From: an uncultured Clostridia bacterium
Lineage (GTDB): Bacteria; Bacillota; Clostridia; Christensenellales; Aristaeellaceae
DNA: 64,000 nucleotides
Assembly (NCBI GenBank): GCA_947166385.1
Contig: CAMVEB010000008.1
Coordinates: 62,001-126,000 of the forward strand
Direction: 5' to 3'
The position numbers were made by a program, and so were the translations under genes. The notes below the pieces were generated by a model, which was not told the DNA's origin, made no database searches, and saw only the letters and a program-made list of their open reading frames with translations. Below are positions 53,817 through 64,000 of this stretch, piece by piece (position 1 is the stretch's first letter; the number at the start of each line of letters is the position of its first letter).

Positions 53817-54500
53817 TCAGCGGAAATAGCTGAGCTTCTTTTCCAGCCTGGCGAACAGGATGGTCAGGATGCCGGTGAAGGCCAGGTAATAGATGCCGGT
53901 GAAGAACAGCGGCCAGATGACGCCGGAGATTCCCTGGCTGCCCTTCATGAAGGACTGGCCGGCCCAGATAATCTCCTGCAGGGCGATGATGCGCGCCAGG
54001 GAGGTGTCCTTGATCAGCGTGATGATTTCATTGGAGATCGGGGGAAGAATCGCCTTGATGACCTGGAGCAGCTTGACCCGGAAGAAGATCTGGGCCGGCT
54101 TCATGCCCAGGACCAGGCCGGCTTCCTCCTGGCCGACGGGGATGCCCTGGATGCCGCCGCGGAAGATTTCGCAGAAATAGCAGGCATAATTGATGATAAA
54201 GGCCACCGAGGCCGCGGCGAAACGTCCGCTCTCCCCGCCGCCCCAGATGGGCGTGTTCAGCACGAGACCGGGGAAATAGAAGATGATCAGCAGCTGGATC
54301 ATCAGGGGTGAGCCGCGCACGATCCAGACGACGGTCCTGATGAAGGCGCGGAGCAGCTTCCAGCGGGAGATCTCGGCCACGGCCAGCAGCATACCCAGGG
54401 GGATCGCGCCGACCAGGGTGATCAGAAAGAGGCGAAACGTCTGCAGGAAGCCGGTGTTCAGCGAGCCCAGGACGATCGGAAATTGTTCGGCAAAAGTCAT
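53817..54500 (-). CDS. Polar amino-acid ABC transporter permease
   Basis: 227 aa from ATG 54500, placed by CCGGAGG; a TTG at 54524 is rejected. Five or so helices of the HisM/GlnP family: LNTGFLQTFRLFLITLVGAI, VVWIVRGSPLMIQLLIIFYF and the EAA loop EEAGLVLGMKPAQIFFRVKL, then AILPPISNEIITLIKDTSLA. It would homodimerise or pair with itself, as only one permease gene is present. Functions with the neighbouring ATPase and binding protein. Confidence 0.94.
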   Translation of the reverse strand: MTFAEQFPIVLGSLNTGFLQTFRLFLITLVGAIPLGMLLAVAEISRWKLLRAFIRTVVWIVRGSPLMIQLLIIFYFPGLVLNTPIWGGGESGRFAAASVAFIINYACYFCEIFRGGIQGIPVGQEEAGLVLGMKPAQIFFRVKLLQVIKAILPPISNEIITLIKDTSLARIIALQEIIWAGQSFMKGSQGISGVIWPLFFTGIYYLAFTGILTILFARLEKKLSYFR

Positions 54501-54529
54501 GGAAACCTCCGGAGAATAAAACAAAGATG

Positions 54530-54555
54530 CGGCAGGCGGATGCTTCCGCCTGCCG
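54530..54555 (-). promoter_or_regulatory. Intercistronic hairpin after the binding-protein gene
   Basis: CGGCAGGCGGA (54530-54540) and TCCGCCTGCCG (54545-54555) form a perfect 11-bp stem with loop TGCT, between the binding-protein and permease genes. No U run follows on the minus strand, so it probably protects or tunes the upstream mRNA segment. Confidence 0.65.
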
Positions 54556-54572
54556 GAAAAAAACCTGCGGGA

Positions 54573-55352
54573 TTACTCGGTGATCAGGGCAGCCTGGACA
54601 CCGTAGGTTTCCGCGATCTTGGCGAGGGAACCGTCGGCCAGGGCGGCAGCCAGGAACTCATCCAGGGCAGCGGCCAGGTCGGAATCCTTGCGGAAGCCGA
54701 CGCCGTACTGCTCGTCATTCAAGGGCAGGGTGTAGGTCAGATCCGGATAGGAGGTGCCTTCCCCGACCATGGCGGCGGCCATCAGGGCGTCGATCACGGC
54801 GGCATCAGAGGTGCCGGCCTTGACTTCCATCAGGGCGGCGGCCTGGTTCTGGACGGCGTTGACCGTATAACCAAGCTCCGTCAGCACGGCTTCACCGGCG
54901 CTGCCGGCTTCGGCCGCGAAGGCCAGGGAAGCGAGGCTTTCCACGGTGGCATAGTCGGCGAGCTTCGCGGCGGGGAGAACGACAACCTGCGCGTTGTTCA
55001 TATAAGCCTTGCTGCAGGTCATGGCGGCGAGGACTTCCTCCGTCAGGGTCATGCCGTTCCACACGCAGTCGATATTCTTCGAATCCAGCTCAAGGGCCTT
55101 GTTGTCCCAGTCGATCTCCTGGAACTCGATTTCCACGCCCAGGGAAGCCGCGAAAGCGCGGGCCAGGTCGGCATCAAAGCCGATCCATTCGCCGGACTCA
55201 TCCTTATAATCCATGGGCTCGAAATCCGTGATCCCGACGATCAGCTTTCCCTTGCCGACCACATAGTCCTTATCCCCGGCGGCTTCCGCCACGGACAGGG
55301 CGGAAACGGCCAGCAGCACCAGGCACAACAGCATTGCAACGATCTTTTTCAT
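54573..55352 (-). CDS. Polar amino-acid ABC transporter substrate-binding protein
   Basis: 259 aa. Signal peptide (MKKIVAMLLCLVLLAVSALS, then VAEA); a Cys at residue 10 is too deep in the hydrophobic core to be a clear lipobox. Family-3 binding-protein motifs: GKLIVGITDFEPMDYKDESG, EWIGFDADLARAFAASLGVE, NIDCVWNGMTLTEE and AAVIDALMAAAMVGEG. The ligand is probably a polar amino acid. It is the first gene of the operon, preceded by GGAGGCTATCAAG and the promoter at 55412-55440. Confidence 0.93.
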   Translation of the reverse strand: MKKIVAMLLCLVLLAVSALSVAEAAGDKDYVVGKGKLIVGITDFEPMDYKDESGEWIGFDADLARAFAASLGVEIEFQEIDWDNKALELDSKNIDCVWNGMTLTEEVLAAMTCSKAYMNNAQVVVLPAAKLADYATVESLASLAFAAEAGSAGEAVLTELGYTVNAVQNQAAALMEVKAGTSDAAVIDALMAAAMVGEGTSYPDLTYTLPLNDEQYGVGFRKDSDLAAALDEFLAAALADGSLAKIAETYGVQAALITE

Positions 55353-57595: not shown

Positions 57596-59053
57596 TCAGC
57601 GGATTTTCAGCGTGTTGGCGCAGAGAGAGGGGAGACGGTCCGGCAGGGGAACCACCAGGAGACCGTATTCCTGCCGGAAGGCGAGGGGGCCGGCGCCCAG
57701 CAGTTCCACCGAGCGGACTTCGGTGTCCGCGAAGCTGCGGAGAACGACGGTTTCCCCGGCGGCGGCGCCCAGCATGAAGGCATAGACGGCGCCGTCCTTC
57801 TGCACAAAGCGGAAATCGCTACGGTTCCAGTCTGTCTTTTCCTCGGTGAAACCGTCGATTTTGACCCGGGTATCGCCCTCGCCGAAGACGCGCCAGGGGC
57901 GGGTGCCGTAAACGGCCTCGCTGTTGACGGCGAACCAGGCCGCCAGCTGATCCAGGATGAAGGAGGCATCGTCGTCGATGGTGCCGTCCGGGCGCTGGAG
58001 GATATTGAGGAGCATATTGCCGTTCTTGGAGATGATATCCACGAGCATCTCAATGATCTGCTCCGGACGCTTGTAGGGATGATGCACATCATAGAACCAG
58101 TTGCCGATGCAGGTATCGGTATGCCAGGGATCCGGCATGATGCCGGGGAGCTGGCTTTTTTCTATATCCAGGATACCGACATGGAAGATTTCCGGGCGGC
58201 GGTCCTTCTGCAGATAGACGGCGCGGTTTTCGCCATGCTGATCGATGGACGTGTTGTACAGGCGGGCGACAGCCTGCAGGCCCAGGCGGTAAACTTCGGG
58301 ATCCGGATCGGCCTGGCGGTCCAGCCAGTGCTCGCCGAAGGGGAGGACGCCGTCGGTATACAGCAGGTCCGGGCAGAAGATATCGATCATCTCGCAGACG
58401 CAGCGGTACCAGTATTCACGGAACTGCGGATTGGACGTATACCAGGGGGAGCAGTCCTGGGGATTGTCCGTGCCGTGCTCCTGATTGGCATGGTAGAAAT
58501 CCTGATAGGCGGGGTCATTGCCGTCGTAGGGGACGCCGGCATAGGGACCGAATTTGTCACAGCCCTTGTTGACGCGCCACCAGGAGAAGGAGGCGCCGAG
58601 GTGCTCGCTGAGGCCAAAGGCCATGCCGAGGCGGTCGGCTTCCTTCTTCCACAGGGCGAGGATATCTTTCTTCGGGCCGACATTGACGCTGTTCATACGG
58701 TTAATTTTCGAGCCGTAATTAAAAAAATGGTCATGGTGGGTGGCCTGGGTCATCAGATAGCGGGCGCCGGCTTTGTAATACCGGTCCGCCAGGGCGGCCG
58801 GGTCGAAGTTCTCGGCCTTCCAGAGGGCGCAGATATCCTTATAGCCGAATTTGGAGGGATGGCCGTAATGACGCAGGTGGTATTCATACTGCGGAGTGCC
58901 CTCGATATACATATTGCGGGCGTACCAGTCCCCAAACATGGGGACGCTCTGCGGGCCCCAGTGGCTCCAGATGCCGAACTTGGCATCCCGGAACCAGGCG
59001 GGAGCGGAGAACCGGTGGAGGGAGTCGAAAGTGGGAGAGAAATGCTGGCTCAT
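57596..59053 (-). CDS. GH29 alpha-L-fucosidase, cytoplasmic
   Basis: 485 aa without signal peptide. GH29 landmarks: APAWFRDAKFGIWSHWGPQS near the start, GARYLMTQATHHDHFFNYGS, FGLSEHLGASFSWW, and DLLYTDGVLPFGEHW, where the Asp of LLYTDG is the expected nucleophile. DIISKNGNMLLNILQRPDG closes the barrel, followed by a C-terminal beta domain. It removes alpha-L-fucose from short glycans imported into the cell. The ATG overlaps the stop of the permease-GGDEF-EAL gene (ATGA, 59050-59053) and its AAGGAGG lies inside that gene's last codons, so translation is coupled. Confidence 0.92.
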   Translation of the reverse strand: MSQHFSPTFDSLHRFSAPAWFRDAKFGIWSHWGPQSVPMFGDWYARNMYIEGTPQYEYHLRHYGHPSKFGYKDICALWKAENFDPAALADRYYKAGARYLMTQATHHDHFFNYGSKINRMNSVNVGPKKDILALWKKEADRLGMAFGLSEHLGASFSWWRVNKGCDKFGPYAGVPYDGNDPAYQDFYHANQEHGTDNPQDCSPWYTSNPQFREYWYRCVCEMIDIFCPDLLYTDGVLPFGEHWLDRQADPDPEVYRLGLQAVARLYNTSIDQHGENRAVYLQKDRRPEIFHVGILDIEKSQLPGIMPDPWHTDTCIGNWFYDVHHPYKRPEQIIEMLVDIISKNGNMLLNILQRPDGTIDDDASFILDQLAAWFAVNSEAVYGTRPWRVFGEGDTRVKIDGFTEEKTDWNRSDFRFVQKDGAVYAFMLGAAAGETVVLRSFADTEVRSVELLGAGPLAFRQEYGLLVVPLPDRLPSLCANTLKIR

Positions 59054-62000
59054 GAGCGGGCCTCCTTTTTATCGAAGAATGATTCAAATTCCTCACGGGG
59101 GACGGGTTTGGAGAAGAAATAGCCCTGGGCGAGGTCGCAGCCCAGATTCTTCAGCGTGTTCAGCTGCTGATCCGTCTCCACGCCCTCGGCGATGACGGGG
59201 ACGGACAGATGGCGGGCGATATCGAGGATCAGCTCGATGATGCGGGTGTCCGGTACATCACCGGCGAAGGCGGTGCGGACAAAGCTCATATCCAGCTTCA
59301 GGGCGTCAATGGGCAGGTTGTTCAGCAGACCCAGGGAGGAATAACCTGTGCCGAAATCGTCCATCTCAATCATGAAGCCCATGGCCCGCAGCTCCCGGGC
59401 CATGGCGATGACCGGGCCGGAGGAGCCGGTATAGGCGGACTCGGTGATCTCCAGCATGAGATCGGAGGCCTGCAGGCGGTAGGTTTGCAGGATGCGGGAG
59501 AAGATCTCCTTCAGGTCCGTGGCCAGCATATCCACACGGGAGACGTTGACCGAGACAGGAACGGAAGTGCCGAGGCGATCCTTCCAGAGGCGGATCTGTT
59601 CGGCGGTTTTCTCCCAGACAAAGGAATCCAGATCCAGGATCAGGCCGCTTTCCTCCAGCAGGGGGATGAACTCCGCCGGGCTGATCATGCCGAACTCGGG
59701 ATGCACCCAGCGCACCAGCGCCTCGGCGCTGGCCAGGAAGGGCTGCTCGCCGCGGATGTTAAACTTGGGCTGCAGGAAGACTTTGAAGCAGCCCTGCTCC
59801 AGGCAGGGATGGAAATCCTCCAGGAGACGTTCCCGATGGAGCTGGGTCTCATGGACAGCGGCATCATAGAAGCCGATGAAGGTCGTGCGGCTGCCGCGGA
59901 TCGAATCGGCGGCCTTCTTGGCCCGGTCGAAGCGGCGTTCGATATCCAGGGAGCGATCCACCCCGGCATAGACGCCCATGCGCAGATGCACCTGGCCGGC
60001 AATGTCCTCCTCGCCGCCGATGCCGGCGCCGACCTCCTCCAGGAGGGCCTCATAATCCTCGCTGTGGGGCCGGTAGAGCAGGAAGGTATCGCCGGCCTGG
60101 CGGCAGCAGACGCCGCCGCTTTCCCGGGCGGCCAGGCGGATCTTCTCACCCAGGCGGCAGAGAACCTGATCGCCGTAGTCCCGGCCGTGGCGCTCATTGA
60201 TGATCTGGAAATGGTTCACATCCAGAACGATGGCGTCCATGGCCAGATTTTCATAATGCCGGTCGTAGGTTTCCACATAGCGGACAAAATAATCAATATT
60301 GAAGAGATGAGTCAGGGAATCGCGCTCGGTGGACTGAATAATATCGCGGGTTTCGGACAGCTCGATGCACTTGCTGACGCGGGCGCGGATGATCTCCGGC
60401 TCCGGATAGGGCTTGGGGATGAAATCGATGGCGCCCAGATTCAGGCATTCCACTTCGGCCTGCTGGTCGCCCGTGAGGACGATGACCGGGATGCCGCGGA
60501 GGACTGGATCGGCCTTCATGGTACGGAGAACCTCGATGCCGTCCACCTGGGGCATCTGCAGATCCAGGAGAAGGAGGGTGATCCCATCCTGCAGCTCCTG
60601 CAGCTTCTCCAGGGTTTCGGCGCCGTCGGAGGCGAAGAGCACATCATACTCCTCCTCCAGGATGGCGCCGAGCATCATCTGGTTGATGGCGATATCCTCG
60701 GCGATCAGGATCTGTCGGCGAACCTCCGGAACGGGGGCGGCGGCAGGCTTTTCCCCGGCGGCGGAAACGTCCTCCCGGGTAACGGCGCCCAGACTCTTCA
60801 GCAGCTGCTTCTCCTCGTACATGAGGGCGTCGGAGCGGGTGAAGACATCATGGAAGGATGTATCCTCCGGCTTACGCTCGGAGAGGCCGCCGGAAACAAC
60901 GGCGCCATCGGCGGCGATATTCTTGACGGAACGGTCATGCAGGGCGGCGCGGAGCTCCCGGCGGCATTCAAAATCCCGCCCGGTCAGGATGACCGCGAAC
61001 TCGTCGCCCCCGATCCGGTAGACCGGGCTGTGGCCGAAGATTTCGCAGATCAGCCGGCTGGCGGCACAGATGTACTCATCCCCGGCGTGATGACCCTGGG
61101 TGTCATTGATCTGCTTGAGGCCGTTGACATCGCAGACCATGACGGCGAAATCCTCCATCGCGCCTTCCGCCAGGGCGGCGTTGATCTCCTTCTCCCGGAC
61201 CAGAAAGGCGTGCTTGCTCTTAACGCCGGTCATCGGGTCGATATTCGCCATGGTTTCGCTTTCCTTTGTGCGGCGCTTCATGGCACGGTGATTGGTGAGC
61301 ATGACGGCAAGGGCAAAGCCGAACATGCCCACAGACATCAGGACGGTGCGCATATTGGAGGCTTCAAGCTGATCCACCTGATCCTCGATAAAGCGGGCAT
61401 CCTCCAGGTGATCCTGGTGCGCGGCCTGCTGATAATAGGCATTGATATTCTCCAGCATCCGGTCATTGGCGGAAATCATGGACTGGCGCATCCAGATCAG
61501 GGCCACGAAGAGCACCAGGGAGAGCAGCACAATCCATACGACGGCGGAAGAGCCGAAGCGCCTCTCCTGATCCCGCCGGAGGATCAGGCGGAAGAAGAGG
61601 AAGCCCAGAATGCTCCAGACAATGAAGAGGAAATACGTTTCCCGCGCAAGGGAACCGGTGGAGATCAGGCTGGGGATCAGCAGATAGAGCCCGAAGCCGA
61701 TCATGACGAGCAGGCCGAAGAAGCCGGTGACCCGCTCAGGCTTATCCCCCCGGAGACGGGCGGTCTTCATGGCGGCGGCGGACACAAGACCGTAGATCAG
61801 CGTGGCACCGATGGTGGTGACATCCACGATCCAGCCGATGGCGGTGCGCCCCACGAAGGGGATCACCAGAGAAACGCCGGTGACCAGCAGGATCGCGGCG
61901 GAGGGAACGCCGCGCGCGTTCAGCCGGGCAAAGCAGGCGGGGAGAACCTTGTCCTTCGGCTGGGCGCAGAAGAGACGGCTGAGGGCAGTGATGGTACCGA

Positions 62001-62958
62001 TGAGGCTGGTGATGATCAGGGCCAGGAGGGAGAGCATCAGGATGACGACCCCGGCATCGCCCAGATAATGCCGGGCGGCGTAGAAGGCGGGAAGGGACTC
62101 CAGCCCGGAAAGATTCCCGCGGTCCTGAATATACTCCAGCCAGGAGCCGTAACGCTCCGGATAGGCGGAGACGGACAGAAGCGTGACAAAAACATAGAGC
62201 AGGGTGACGGAGATGACGGAAGCAACCAGGATCCGGAAGATCCGCGTGCGCCGGAAGGTGTACTCCTCGGCACCGTGGGAAACGGATTCAAAGCCGATAA
62301 AGGCCCAGGGGGAGATGACCGCGATCTTCACGACCTGGGAGAGGGCGGAAGTATCCGGGACGAACCCCGGGGCGAAGGCGGGACGGACGCCGAACAGCGC
62401 GGCCAGGAAAACGGCCGTGATCCCGGCGGCAAAGAGGCAGACCAGACCGATCATCAGGATGACGGAAAGGCGGCTGCTGTGCAGGCAGACCGCGGCGGTC
62501 AGCACCAGGACCGCGGCGGTGACCAGAACCTCACCCAGATAGACATCATAGCCGAAGAGGGCATACAGCCGGCCGAACTGAAACAGATCGCCCACAAAAA
62601 TCCTCATGAAGAGAGGGACGGAGGTGGCGTTGGCCCAGAGAATGGCCAGATATGTCAGGGCCAGGAACCAACCGGTCAGAAATCCGTAATCATGCCCAAA
62701 GGCATGCGTGGAATAGCAGCAGGCGCCGCCTGCATCCGGATGAATCTGGATCAGATAGGCATAATTGCGGCTGATGACCAGCATGATGGCCGCGCCGATG
62801 AGCAGACCGAGGACGCTGCCCCAGGGGCCGGCCTGGGCCAGATAGGTATTGCTGGTCACGACCAGGGAACCCCAGCCGATGCTGCTGCCCAGAGCAAACG
62901 CCCAGACACCGACGGGGGAGAGCCCCGGAATCAGTTTCCCGTGTTTTTTCATACCCAT
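59050..62958 (-). CDS. Amino-acid permease fused to GGDEF-REC-GGDEF(degenerate)-EAL
   Basis: 1302 aa from ATG 62958 (AAGGTG upstream). Residues ~10-465 form an APC-superfamily permease of about 12 helices: FALGSSIGWGSLVVTSNTYL, HPDAGGACCYSTHAFG, PWAFIGFESVSHGAEEY. Two more helices (~471-490, ~536-555) flank a short helical segment. A GGDEF domain follows (570-725) with an intact site YRIGGDEF (650-654) and no R-x-x-D I-site. Then a receiver domain (748-865) with phospho-acceptor D799 in LLLLDLQMP and K849. A second GGDEF is degenerate (QAGDTF, 954-959). The EAL domain (1045-1300) is complete: ASAEALVRW, VNVSRVD, LEITES, EMDDFGTGYSS, ALKLDMS, AEGVETD. It could couple amino-acid uptake or sensing to c-di-GMP synthesis and breakdown. 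Transport ability is unproven. Confidence 0.93.
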   Translation of the reverse strand: MGMKKHGKLIPGLSPVGVWAFALGSSIGWGSLVVTSNTYLAQAGPWGSVLGLLIGAAIMLVISRNYAYLIQIHPDAGGACCYSTHAFGHDYGFLTGWFLALTYLAILWANATSVPLFMRIFVGDLFQFGRLYALFGYDVYLGEVLVTAAVLVLTAAVCLHSSRLSVILMIGLVCLFAAGITAVFLAALFGVRPAFAPGFVPDTSALSQVVKIAVISPWAFIGFESVSHGAEEYTFRRTRIFRILVASVISVTLLYVFVTLLSVSAYPERYGSWLEYIQDRGNLSGLESLPAFYAARHYLGDAGVVILMLSLLALIITSLIGTITALSRLFCAQPKDKVLPACFARLNARGVPSAAILLVTGVSLVIPFVGRTAIGWIVDVTTIGATLIYGLVSAAAMKTARLRGDKPERVTGFFGLLVMIGFGLYLLIPSLISTGSLARETYFLFIVWSILGFLFFRLILRRDQERRFGSSAVVWIVLLSLVLFVALIWMRQSMISANDRMLENINAYYQQAAHQDHLEDARFIEDQVDQLEASNMRTVLMSVGMFGFALAVMLTNHRAMKRRTKESETMANIDPMTGVKSKHAFLVREKEINAALAEGAMEDFAVMVCDVNGLKQINDTQGHHAGDEYICAASRLICEIFGHSPVYRIGGDEFAVILTGRDFECRRELRAALHDRSVKNIAADGAVVSGGLSERKPEDTSFHDVFTRSDALMYEEKQLLKSLGAVTREDVSAAGEKPAAAPVPEVRRQILIAEDIAINQMMLGAILEEEYDVLFASDGAETLEKLQELQDGITLLLLDLQMPQVDGIEVLRTMKADPVLRGIPVIVLTGDQQAEVECLNLGAIDFIPKPYPEPEIIRARVSKCIELSETRDIIQSTERDSLTHLFNIDYFVRYVETYDRHYENLAMDAIVLDVNHFQIINERHGRDYGDQVLCRLGEKIRLAARESGGVCCRQAGDTFLLYRPHSEDYEALLEEVGAGIGGEEDIAGQVHLRMGVYAGVDRSLDIERRFDRAKKAADSIRGSRTTFIGFYDAAVHETQLHRERLLEDFHPCLEQGCFKVFLQPKFNIRGEQPFLASAEALVRWVHPEFGMISPAEFIPLLEESGLILDLDSFVWEKTAEQIRLWKDRLGTSVPVSVNVSRVDMLATDLKEIFSRILQTYRLQASDLMLEITESAYTGSSGPVIAMARELRAMGFMIEMDDFGTGYSSLGLLNNLPIDALKLDMSFVRTAFAGDVPDTRIIELILDIARHLSVPVIAEGVETDQQLNTLKNLGCDLAQGYFFSKPVPREEFESFFDKKEARS

Positions 62959-62992
62959 ACGGAACACCTTCGTTTTTGTTTTGGACAGCGGT

Positions 62993-63022
62993 ATTATATC
63001 AAATGAAGACGGCGCATGGCAA
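62993..63022 (-). promoter_or_regulatory. Promoter of the permease-GGDEF-EAL/fucosidase operon
   Basis: On the minus strand TTGCCA (63022-63017), an 18-bp spacer and TATAAT (62998-62993), 35 bp before the start codon. Confidence 0.7.
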
Positions 63023-63115: not shown

Positions 63116-64000
63116 ATGAAACTGAAGCAGAAACGGACCACAACGATCGCAATCATCGGCGGTATCCTGGTTGCGCTGATCCTGGTGCTGGGGACGATAT
63201 GGCTGGGGCAGAATGCCCGGAAGGACGCGCAGAACGCCGCCCATTCCGTGAGCCTGCTGTACCTGGACGAGCTGGCCGGGCGGCGGGAACAGGTTGTGAA
63301 GAATCACCTGGAGGACAACATCGCGGTGATCCGGACGGCCAACGAACTGATGACCGCGGAGGATCTGAGCGACAAGGCGCACATGGAAGCCTACCAGGCG
63401 CGGATGAAGAAGCTGTTCCGGCTGGACAAATTCGCCTATGTGGATACAAAGGGCCGGATCTACACCTCGCTGGGGATGGAGAACAACATCGGAGACTACC
63501 GGTTTGACCACCTGGATCTGCAGGGGCCGGAGGTTTCCCTGTACCAGACGGCGGAGGGAAAGAAGCAGGTCATTATCGCGGTACCGGTGGACCTGGCATT
63601 CCAGGGAGAGAAACTGTGCGTGTGCTTCATGGCGATTGACATGGAGGAGATGCTGGCCGGGGTATCCATGGATACGCAGCAGTCGGAAACAACCTTCAGC
63701 AACATCTACACGAGCGAAGGCGTCTCGCTGACGGACAAGGTGCTGGCCGGCGAGGCGGCGGAAAGCAACCTGCTGGACGCACTGAAACTGGCAATCTTTG
63801 ACGAAGACTACAGCTACGCCCAGGTGGTGGAAGACTTCCGGGAGGGCCGGAAGCATACGTTCACCTTCCGCTATAACGGCGCGCACGAAACGATGAGCTA
63901 TGTGCCGGTGAAGGGGACGGACTGGATGCTGACCTATCTGATCCGGGAACGGGTGATCACTGACCAGATCAGCAGCATCTCCGGGAACATCATTACCCGG
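63116..64000 (+). CDS. Membrane sensor protein with extracytoplasmic dCache-like domain (incomplete at window edge)
   Basis: 295 codons are open from ATG 63116 (GGCGGAG upstream) to the edge. A basic start (MKLKQKRTTT) and one transmembrane helix (IAIIGGILVALILVLGTIWL) lead to an extracytoplasmic sensor: a long helix (SLLYLDELAGRREQVVKNHL), then PAS-like strands FAYVDTKGRIYTSLGMENNI and VIIAVPVDLAFQGEKLCVCF, and a second lobe ending YVPVKGTDWMLTYLIRERVI. This is the layout of dCache-type domains in histidine kinases, cyclases and chemoreceptors. The output domain lies beyond the window. Its divergence from the c-di-GMP fusion gene makes a related signalling role plausible. Confidence 0.8.
   Translation, partial: MKLKQKRTTTIAIIGGILVALILVLGTIWLGQNARKDAQNAAHSVSLLYLDELAGRREQVVKNHLEDNIAVIRTANELMTAEDLSDKAHMEAYQARMKKLFRLDKFAYVDTKGRIYTSLGMENNIGDYRFDHLDLQGPEVSLYQTAEGKKQVIIAVPVDLAFQGEKLCVCFMAIDMEEMLAGVSMDTQQSETTFSNIYTSEGVSLTDKVLAGEAAESNLLDALKLAIFDEDYSYAQVVEDFREGRKHTFTFRYNGAHETMSYVPVKGTDWMLTYLIRERVITDQISSISGNIITR

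Follow-up and report, generated by a model that had tools for sequence, protein, structure and literature searches.

The fusion gene and its domains

The window analysed here is a stretch of 64,000 nucleotides from an uncultured Clostridia bacterium of the family Aristaeellaceae (contig CAMVEB010000008.1, positions 62,001 to 126,000). Near its end, on the reverse strand, lies a gene (59050..62958) in which an APC-type permease heads a series of domains for the synthesis and breakdown of cyclic di-GMP (c-di-GMP). The open-frame list, the translation and a Pfam scan (reported at E 0.001) give a single uninterrupted frame of 1302 residues, encoding a permease, a transmembrane (TM) hairpin, a GGDEF domain, a receiver (REC), a degenerate GGDEF domain and an EAL domain. 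The start is an ATG at 62958 with an AAGGTG ribosome site upstream. The same frame stays open to 63156, giving 1368 residues; from the ribosome site, the ATG at 62958 is the better start. The G+C content of the gene is 61%, and an antisense frame of 1265 residues on the forward strand (59209-63006) that covers nearly all of it is probably a shadow of this high value.

An original prediction had described a 1302-residue fusion with an intact GGDEF domain, an intact receiver aspartate, a degenerate GGDEF domain and an intact EAL domain, and the frame, the Pfam scan and inspection of individual residues bear this out throughout. The scan that it had proposed matched permease, GGDEF, REC and EAL, and nothing else in the window protein at this threshold; two APC-type permease models were the sole membrane-domain matches.

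The permease domain (61681..62922, reverse strand) spans residues 13-426 by the AA_permease_2 match (3.9e-24, 85.8 bits against a cut-off of 27, profile positions 1-397 of 427), with a modelled core of about residues 8-472. It has the 12-TM LeuT-type fold. The structure model has a predicted local distance difference test score (pLDDT) of 88 and a predicted template modelling score (pTM) of 0.77, and AdiC and other amino-acid transporters rank at the top when it is compared with known structures. It is followed by an extra TM hairpin (61246..61542, reverse strand; helices 473-511 and 517-571), recognised from the structure model, alignments, frame lengths and hydropathy. In the predicted structure the second helix of the hairpin continues into the first GGDEF domain. 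By alignments and frame lengths, the stand-alone permease relatives terminate before this hairpin, after TM12.

The four signalling domains follow on the same strand. The first GGDEF domain (60805..61248, residues 571-718) is the better of two Pfam GGDEF stretches (2.3e-33), and its motif is intact at 650-654; the RxxD motif was not found in the window protein at what we take to be its usual place upstream, the meaning of that motif being likewise our assumption. The receiver (60385..60711, residues 750-858; Response_reg, 5.1e-20) has the acidic pair E754 and D755, the phospho-acceptor D799, T829 and K849 all present. The second GGDEF domain (59854..60321, about residues 880-1035), recognised by the second Pfam stretch and a profile of our own, is degenerate, its motif reading AGDTF. 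In the EAL domain (59104..59802, residues 1053-1285; 2.4e-58) the residues E1079, N1138, E1170, D1200/D1201, K1221, E1258 and Q1278, which we take to be the catalytic positions, are all present. Among the NCBIfam models listed, the named phosphodiesterase models gave only sub-cut-off matches to the window protein. Many relatives with the same domain order carry about 140 further conserved residues after the EAL domain, an extension that the window protein is without; it looks PAS-like, although a scan of two members (loci L102 and L142) matched no Pfam model to it.

A conserved permease with changing outputs

Relatives were collected as 60 regions, hand-picked from the match list of genomes of the same family to span frame lengths, and as 80 further loci, which out of 583 were the 80 most similar to an alignment headed by the window protein. 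After removal of permease profile envelopes below 440 residues and of 11 exact duplicates, 137 distinct permease cores remained; the sample was chosen and not random, so the numbers in each output class are not frequencies. The permease is joined to GGDEF alone in 49 cores, to GGDEF-REC-GGDEF-EAL (the five-part order, window protein included) in 39, to a histidine kinase (in some cases with receivers or PAS) in 32, to PAS and GGDEF in seven and to an HD domain in four, leaving six with no or an unclear output. Seen by locus, the ten cores outside the first four classes are the HD_5 types L119, L146, L158 and L178 (one of them in a record of Ruminococcus sp. YE71), L149 and L057, which run to a contig end, L152, where a GGDEF-REC-GGDEF-EAL frame follows in another reading frame, and L070, L071 and L073, which look like permease alone. 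In some loci the permease part, or the stretch that joins it to the output, is interrupted by in-frame stops or frame shifts (L089 7749-12089, L097 15934-19854, L074 6429-8317, L099 3089-5298 and L152 5905-10217).

All 39 of the five-part members retain the first GGDEF motif and E1079 of the EAL domain. The remaining EAL residues are kept in 38 of 39, the exception being L155, which is gapped where its frame is cut by a contig end.

A quick maximum-likelihood tree was built from the 137 cores and four stand-alone permeases (47 of its 138 forks are open). The fusions fall on one side of the stand-alone permeases with a support of 99, which carries a warning of long outgroup branches meeting, and the kinase types branch nearest to this outgroup. 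By parsimony the output changes at least 14 times among the fusions, or 15 times with the stand-alone step, compared with a mean of 70 when all labels are shuffled. Merging both GGDEF types leaves 12 changes, and the starred branches alone force six for the five-part type, eight for GGDEF and three for kinase. A careful tree of 38 rows around the window protein needs two changes between the GGDEF and five-part types. Sensor domains are typically recognised by an input that stays conserved while the outputs vary, and this pattern therefore argues for a sensory role of the permease.

Conservation within the permease points to its substrate site. With helix limits that we set from the structure model, column entropy over 80 sequences (728 aligned residues) is lowest in TM3 (0.82), TM10 (0.85), TM1 (0.86), TM6 (0.97) and TM8 (1.11), while the other seven helices lie between 1.40 and 1.98 and the GGDEF domain at 1.34. 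We take TM1, 3, 6, 8 and 10 to be the helices that line the substrate site in this fold, and their conservation therefore suggests that the permease domain does something requiring that site. Loss of the TM5 lysine was considered as a mark of a transport-dead domain and dropped: position 177 is basic in none of 30 aligned members, yet the closest stand-alone permeases are without it too.

In the genome of the window (a draft of 4.33 Mb in 96 contigs, 94.6% complete) PF13520 and PF00324 each match the same pair of proteins, both of them signalling fusions, and nothing else. Besides the window protein the pair comprises a paralogue, 43% identical in the permease, joined to a histidine kinase with a receiver. 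The proposal that the permease acts as the sensory input is thus strengthened by three lines of evidence, namely a conserved core through 14 changes of output, conserved substrate-site helices and a genome with no other match to the permease models.

In genome samples, the same family gave matches at E 0.001 in 91 of 300 genomes, and the best E lies below 1e-70 in 73 of these, the own genome counted. In the order, 19 of 396 genomes match; G308 is the one genome outside the family to fall below 1e-70, and it carries a kinase-type fusion. Of 398 genomes sampled from the phylum 101 match, nearly all through permeases of normal length; apart from the own genome, frames above 800 residues occur only in G907, G690 and G1022, all kinase types, one phylum-sample kinase type (L193 3507-5951) being assigned only by a match below the Pfam cut-off. 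The c-di-GMP fusions are thus confined to one family in these samples, while named records show other families too. By title, the 80 named records comprise 66 Bacillota, 10 Actinomycetota, two Spirochaetota, one Chloroflexota and one Thermodesulfobacteriota, and by our word list 64 of the 80 titles point to a ruminant or to a rumen project, the project codes RUG, RUI and SIG being counted as such. The five-part form occurs in 18 Bacillota and three Actinomycetota among the distinct named cores, again by title. The original prediction had suggested looking for the architecture across Clostridia; it is indeed found there, and it is not confined to them, occurring also in named records under Erysipelotrichaceae and under the three Actinomycetota titles. 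Most named records are metagenome bins with taxonomy by title, the Treponema and Anaerolineaceae contigs measuring 51 to 193 kb, and single placements, above all a short Desulfovibrio contig, may be binning errors. A search of a plasmid collection gave 12 records with a best identity of 29%, none covering 80% of the query.

Neighbouring genes and the origin of the fused form

Neighbours were counted from stop-to-stop frames with either a stricter limit of 150 overlapping bases or a looser one of 250; the stricter limit loses locus L101 and the kinase beside the window gene, and the looser one admits both. Under the stricter limit a separate REC-GGDEF-EAL gene lies within 500 bp of 14 of the 49 permease-GGDEF genes, always on the same strand. 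Under the looser limit it is 15 of 49, with nine downstream (the fused order) and six upstream. The rough base rate for an adjacent EAL gene is 0.9% (18 EAL genes in 4.33 Mb), a figure that assumes 0.9 genes per kb and independence; the relatives are not independent, and a binomial value calculated from it serves as a guide only. Because permease-GGDEF genes adjoin same-strand REC-GGDEF-EAL genes in this way, a fused pair appears to be the simplest history. Separate REC-GGDEF-EAL genes also score next after the fused ones against the C-terminal half of the window protein. Kinase-type permeases stand beside such a gene as well, in 5 of 17 and 6 of 9 cases for the two principal kinase classes. 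A gene for permease, kinase and receiver from another family of the order (L186 5908-11156) is followed by a separate REC-GGDEF-EAL-GGDEF gene.

In locus L101 a hybrid kinase gene is followed by one for permease-GGDEF and one for REC-GGDEF-EAL-GGDEF; the latter two stand in the fused order and overlap by four bases. Its permease sits with that of the window in a supported set of 14 rows (99/92, careful tree), and its hybrid kinase is 62% identical to the one beside the window gene. Judged from gene order and similarity, it would be most economical to regard the window protein as a fusion of such a permease-GGDEF and REC-GGDEF-EAL pair, or L101 as its split.

Upstream of the fusion gene, divergently oriented and 157 bases away, lies a hybrid histidine kinase gene on the forward strand (63116..64000, continuing as L081 7117-9744; 875 residues). 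In a Pfam scan it comprises a sensor part, which dCache matches below the threshold, followed by HisKA, HATPase and two REC domains. A divergent hybrid kinase is placed in the same way at L086, L087 and L106. This kinase is the likely phosphate donor for the receiver of the fusion protein. The prediction had named a phospho-signal through the receiver as second input, which gains support from the adjacent hybrid kinase and from the separate REC-GGDEF-EAL genes beside unfused relatives.

Other genes nearby were considered as clues to the ligand. An alpha-L-fucosidase gene (57596-59053, reverse strand) has an ATG that overlaps the stop of the fusion gene by four bases; as a ligand clue this operon was dropped, as no match above 180 bits besides the window's own was found in the fetched loci L040-L179. 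Amino-acid ABC genes (53817-55352) are not adjacent, and their binding protein had no match above 180 bits in the same loci. A further GGDEF gene of 618 residues (L081 10968-12824, reverse strand) lies nearby and looks as if headed by a LacI-type ligand-binding part. PilZ gave no match in the own genome despite 18 EAL matches there, with the control positive in 5 of 14 cases, and a scan for c-di-GMP-I riboswitches found none in the own genome and none in the control either.

Proposed function and comparison with known systems

We consider it probable, on the basis of domain content, conservation and gene neighbourhood, that the window protein is an APC-derived membrane receptor, or transceptor, in which a ligand of the permease and phosphorylation of the receiver together set c-di-GMP. 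The APC-type domain would bind a small ligand, by its fold most likely an amino acid or amine. A conformational change induced by the ligand would pass through the added TM hairpin and the helix behind it to the first GGDEF domain and set c-di-GMP synthesis, the direction of coupling being the one we suppose. The C-terminal REC-GGDEF-EAL half would be a response-regulator phosphodiesterase that became fused to a permease-GGDEF protein, and c-di-GMP breakdown would be set when its receiver is phosphorylated, for which the adjacent hybrid kinase is the likeliest candidate, if donor and enzyme activities are as presumed. One polypeptide would then weigh two signals into one second messenger.

A narrower version, which we regard as possible and hold only tentatively, is a strict dual-function transceptor whose permease domain both transports and signals; it is a sub-case of the receptor, and our confidences in the two overlap. 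Its precedent is CbrA, which is reported to bind and transport L-histidine and to be a kinase as well (PMC7096432). The conserved permease core and a genome without other matches to the two permease models agree with it, but no sequence feature found here tells it from a pure receptor.

Signalling might also run from the cytoplasm to the permease, with the GGDEF and EAL domains regulating a working transporter or keeping a local c-di-GMP pool. Conserved substrate-site helices would be expected of such a protein, any uptake by this family in the own genome must go through the fusions, and regulation of an APC-superfamily transporter by a nucleotide has a precedent in KimA, which appears with bound cyclic di-AMP among the structures listed in the comparison. 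However, the same permease stands on histidine kinases, PAS-GGDEF and HD domains, outputs that share no way back onto a transporter, and the kinase types lie nearest to the stand-alone outgroup in the quick tree, so that we find this arrangement unlikely.

Still less probable is that the permease is a mere membrane anchor or dimerisation scaffold and that the true signal enters through the receiver alone. The adjacent hybrid kinase and a receiver aspartate conserved in 39 of 39 five-part members fit this, but an anchor would not need substrate-site helices more conserved than the GGDEF domain, and the 49 GGDEF-type relatives carry no receiver in the same chain. That the gene is a chimeric assembly or a two-gene read-through in a draft genome of 96 contigs is refuted by its relatives: absence of the architecture from them had been foreseen as the sign of an artefact, but the five-part order recurs in numerous separate assemblies (39 of the 137 distinct cores), which makes it a product of neither chance nor misassembly, and related fusions occur in three records not marked as metagenome-assembled or uncultured (Ruminococcus sp. 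YE71, Lachnospiraceae AD3010 and Clostridiales NK3B98).

Several observations weigh against the receptor and its second input as we propose them. The conservation pattern cannot separate binding from transport, a working transporter being expected to look alike, and the closest stand-alone relatives share the TM1, TM6 and TM10 motifs. Even under the looser limit 34 of the 49 permease-GGDEF genes are without an adjacent REC-GGDEF-EAL gene (some contigs are short, and 36 of the 49 genes are flanked on each side by 1500 bases), in 6 of the 15 pairs that gene lies upstream and not in the fused order, and 2 of the 39 fused genes adjoin a further one. A hybrid kinase lies within 500 bp of only 10 of the 39 fused genes under the looser limit (window included; four of these are permease-kinases) and of nine under the stricter, the window not among them. 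At L082, the nearest relative (72%), our profiles found no other signalling gene in the fetched 15 kb. Moreover, none of the activities of CbrA is reported to have been significantly affected by L-histidine (PMC7096432), and coupling in transporter-signalling fusions therefore need not be simple.

Beyond the single protein, we incline, with less assurance than for the receptor itself, to see a new receptor family grown from APC permeases, in which an exchangeable nutrient sensor drives cyclases, phosphodiesterases and kinases and has passed from phylum to phylum among gut bacteria, mostly those of ruminants, the window form integrating an extracellular nutrient and a phosphorelay to set c-di-GMP. 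To our knowledge, it is largely unknown which signals reach the numerous c-di-GMP enzymes of gut and rumen Clostridia. In a family with a well-understood transporter fold instead of the customary sensor domain, the ligand could be approached directly, through a site that can be modelled on solved relatives. The old question of whether transceptors respond to binding or to transport could be put to the test on transporters and receptors that share a fold, and nature would have provided a series in which one input is combined with several outputs.

Set beside known APC amino-acid transporters such as AdiC, ApcT and GkApcT, the window permease adds the TM hairpin and the signalling domains after TM12. 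The TM5 lysine K191 of GkApcT, whose role we presume, is absent from the window protein and likewise from its stand-alone relatives. The C-terminal half has the same domain order as REC-GGDEF-EAL response-regulator phosphodiesterases; unlike these stand-alone proteins, it is fused behind permease-GGDEF in one chain.

The prediction had held that a transporter serving as sensor for a bifunctional c-di-GMP enzyme with an internal receiver was, as far as it knew, experimentally undescribed. A literature search at the level of listed titles and abstracts, with subscription papers outside it, turned up no fusion of an APC permease with GGDEF or EAL, and to this extent the claim stands; it does not stand for transporter-headed signalling proteins at large, as the kinases CbrA and CrbS precede it and SLC5-STAC heads are mentioned also with GGDEF in one paper (PMC5715377). 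A 2026 preprint gives the structure of CbrA and terms it a rare transceptor (PMC13022988), and for CrbS/CbrA, activation of the regulator is described as independent of transport (PMC5715377). In a paper on S-components, the transceptors of prokaryotes are regarded as a broader class (PMC11109136). The receptors with a 5TMR or S-component fold that it covers likewise use a transporter-related fold as an input module, with PAS, GGDEF, EAL and kinase domains as outputs, but that fold, of the ECF S-component, is unrelated to the 12-TM secondary transporter of the window protein.

The closest likeness is to the SLC5-STAC kinases CbrA, CrbS and RpuS, in which a transporter domain also heads a signalling chain with modular outputs. 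The head of the window protein is of the APC family proper (AA_permease_2) rather than SLC5/SSF, for which the Pfam scan gave no match. Neither did it match a STAC domain, though Pfam may hold no STAC model, and a TM hairpin is predicted there instead. Unlike those kinases, the window protein has this hairpin and a helix to the output as its coupling part, and domains for both synthesis and breakdown of c-di-GMP with an internal receiver as its output. By analogy, it would work like a transceptor of the CbrA sort, but it lies outside the SLC5-STAC family.

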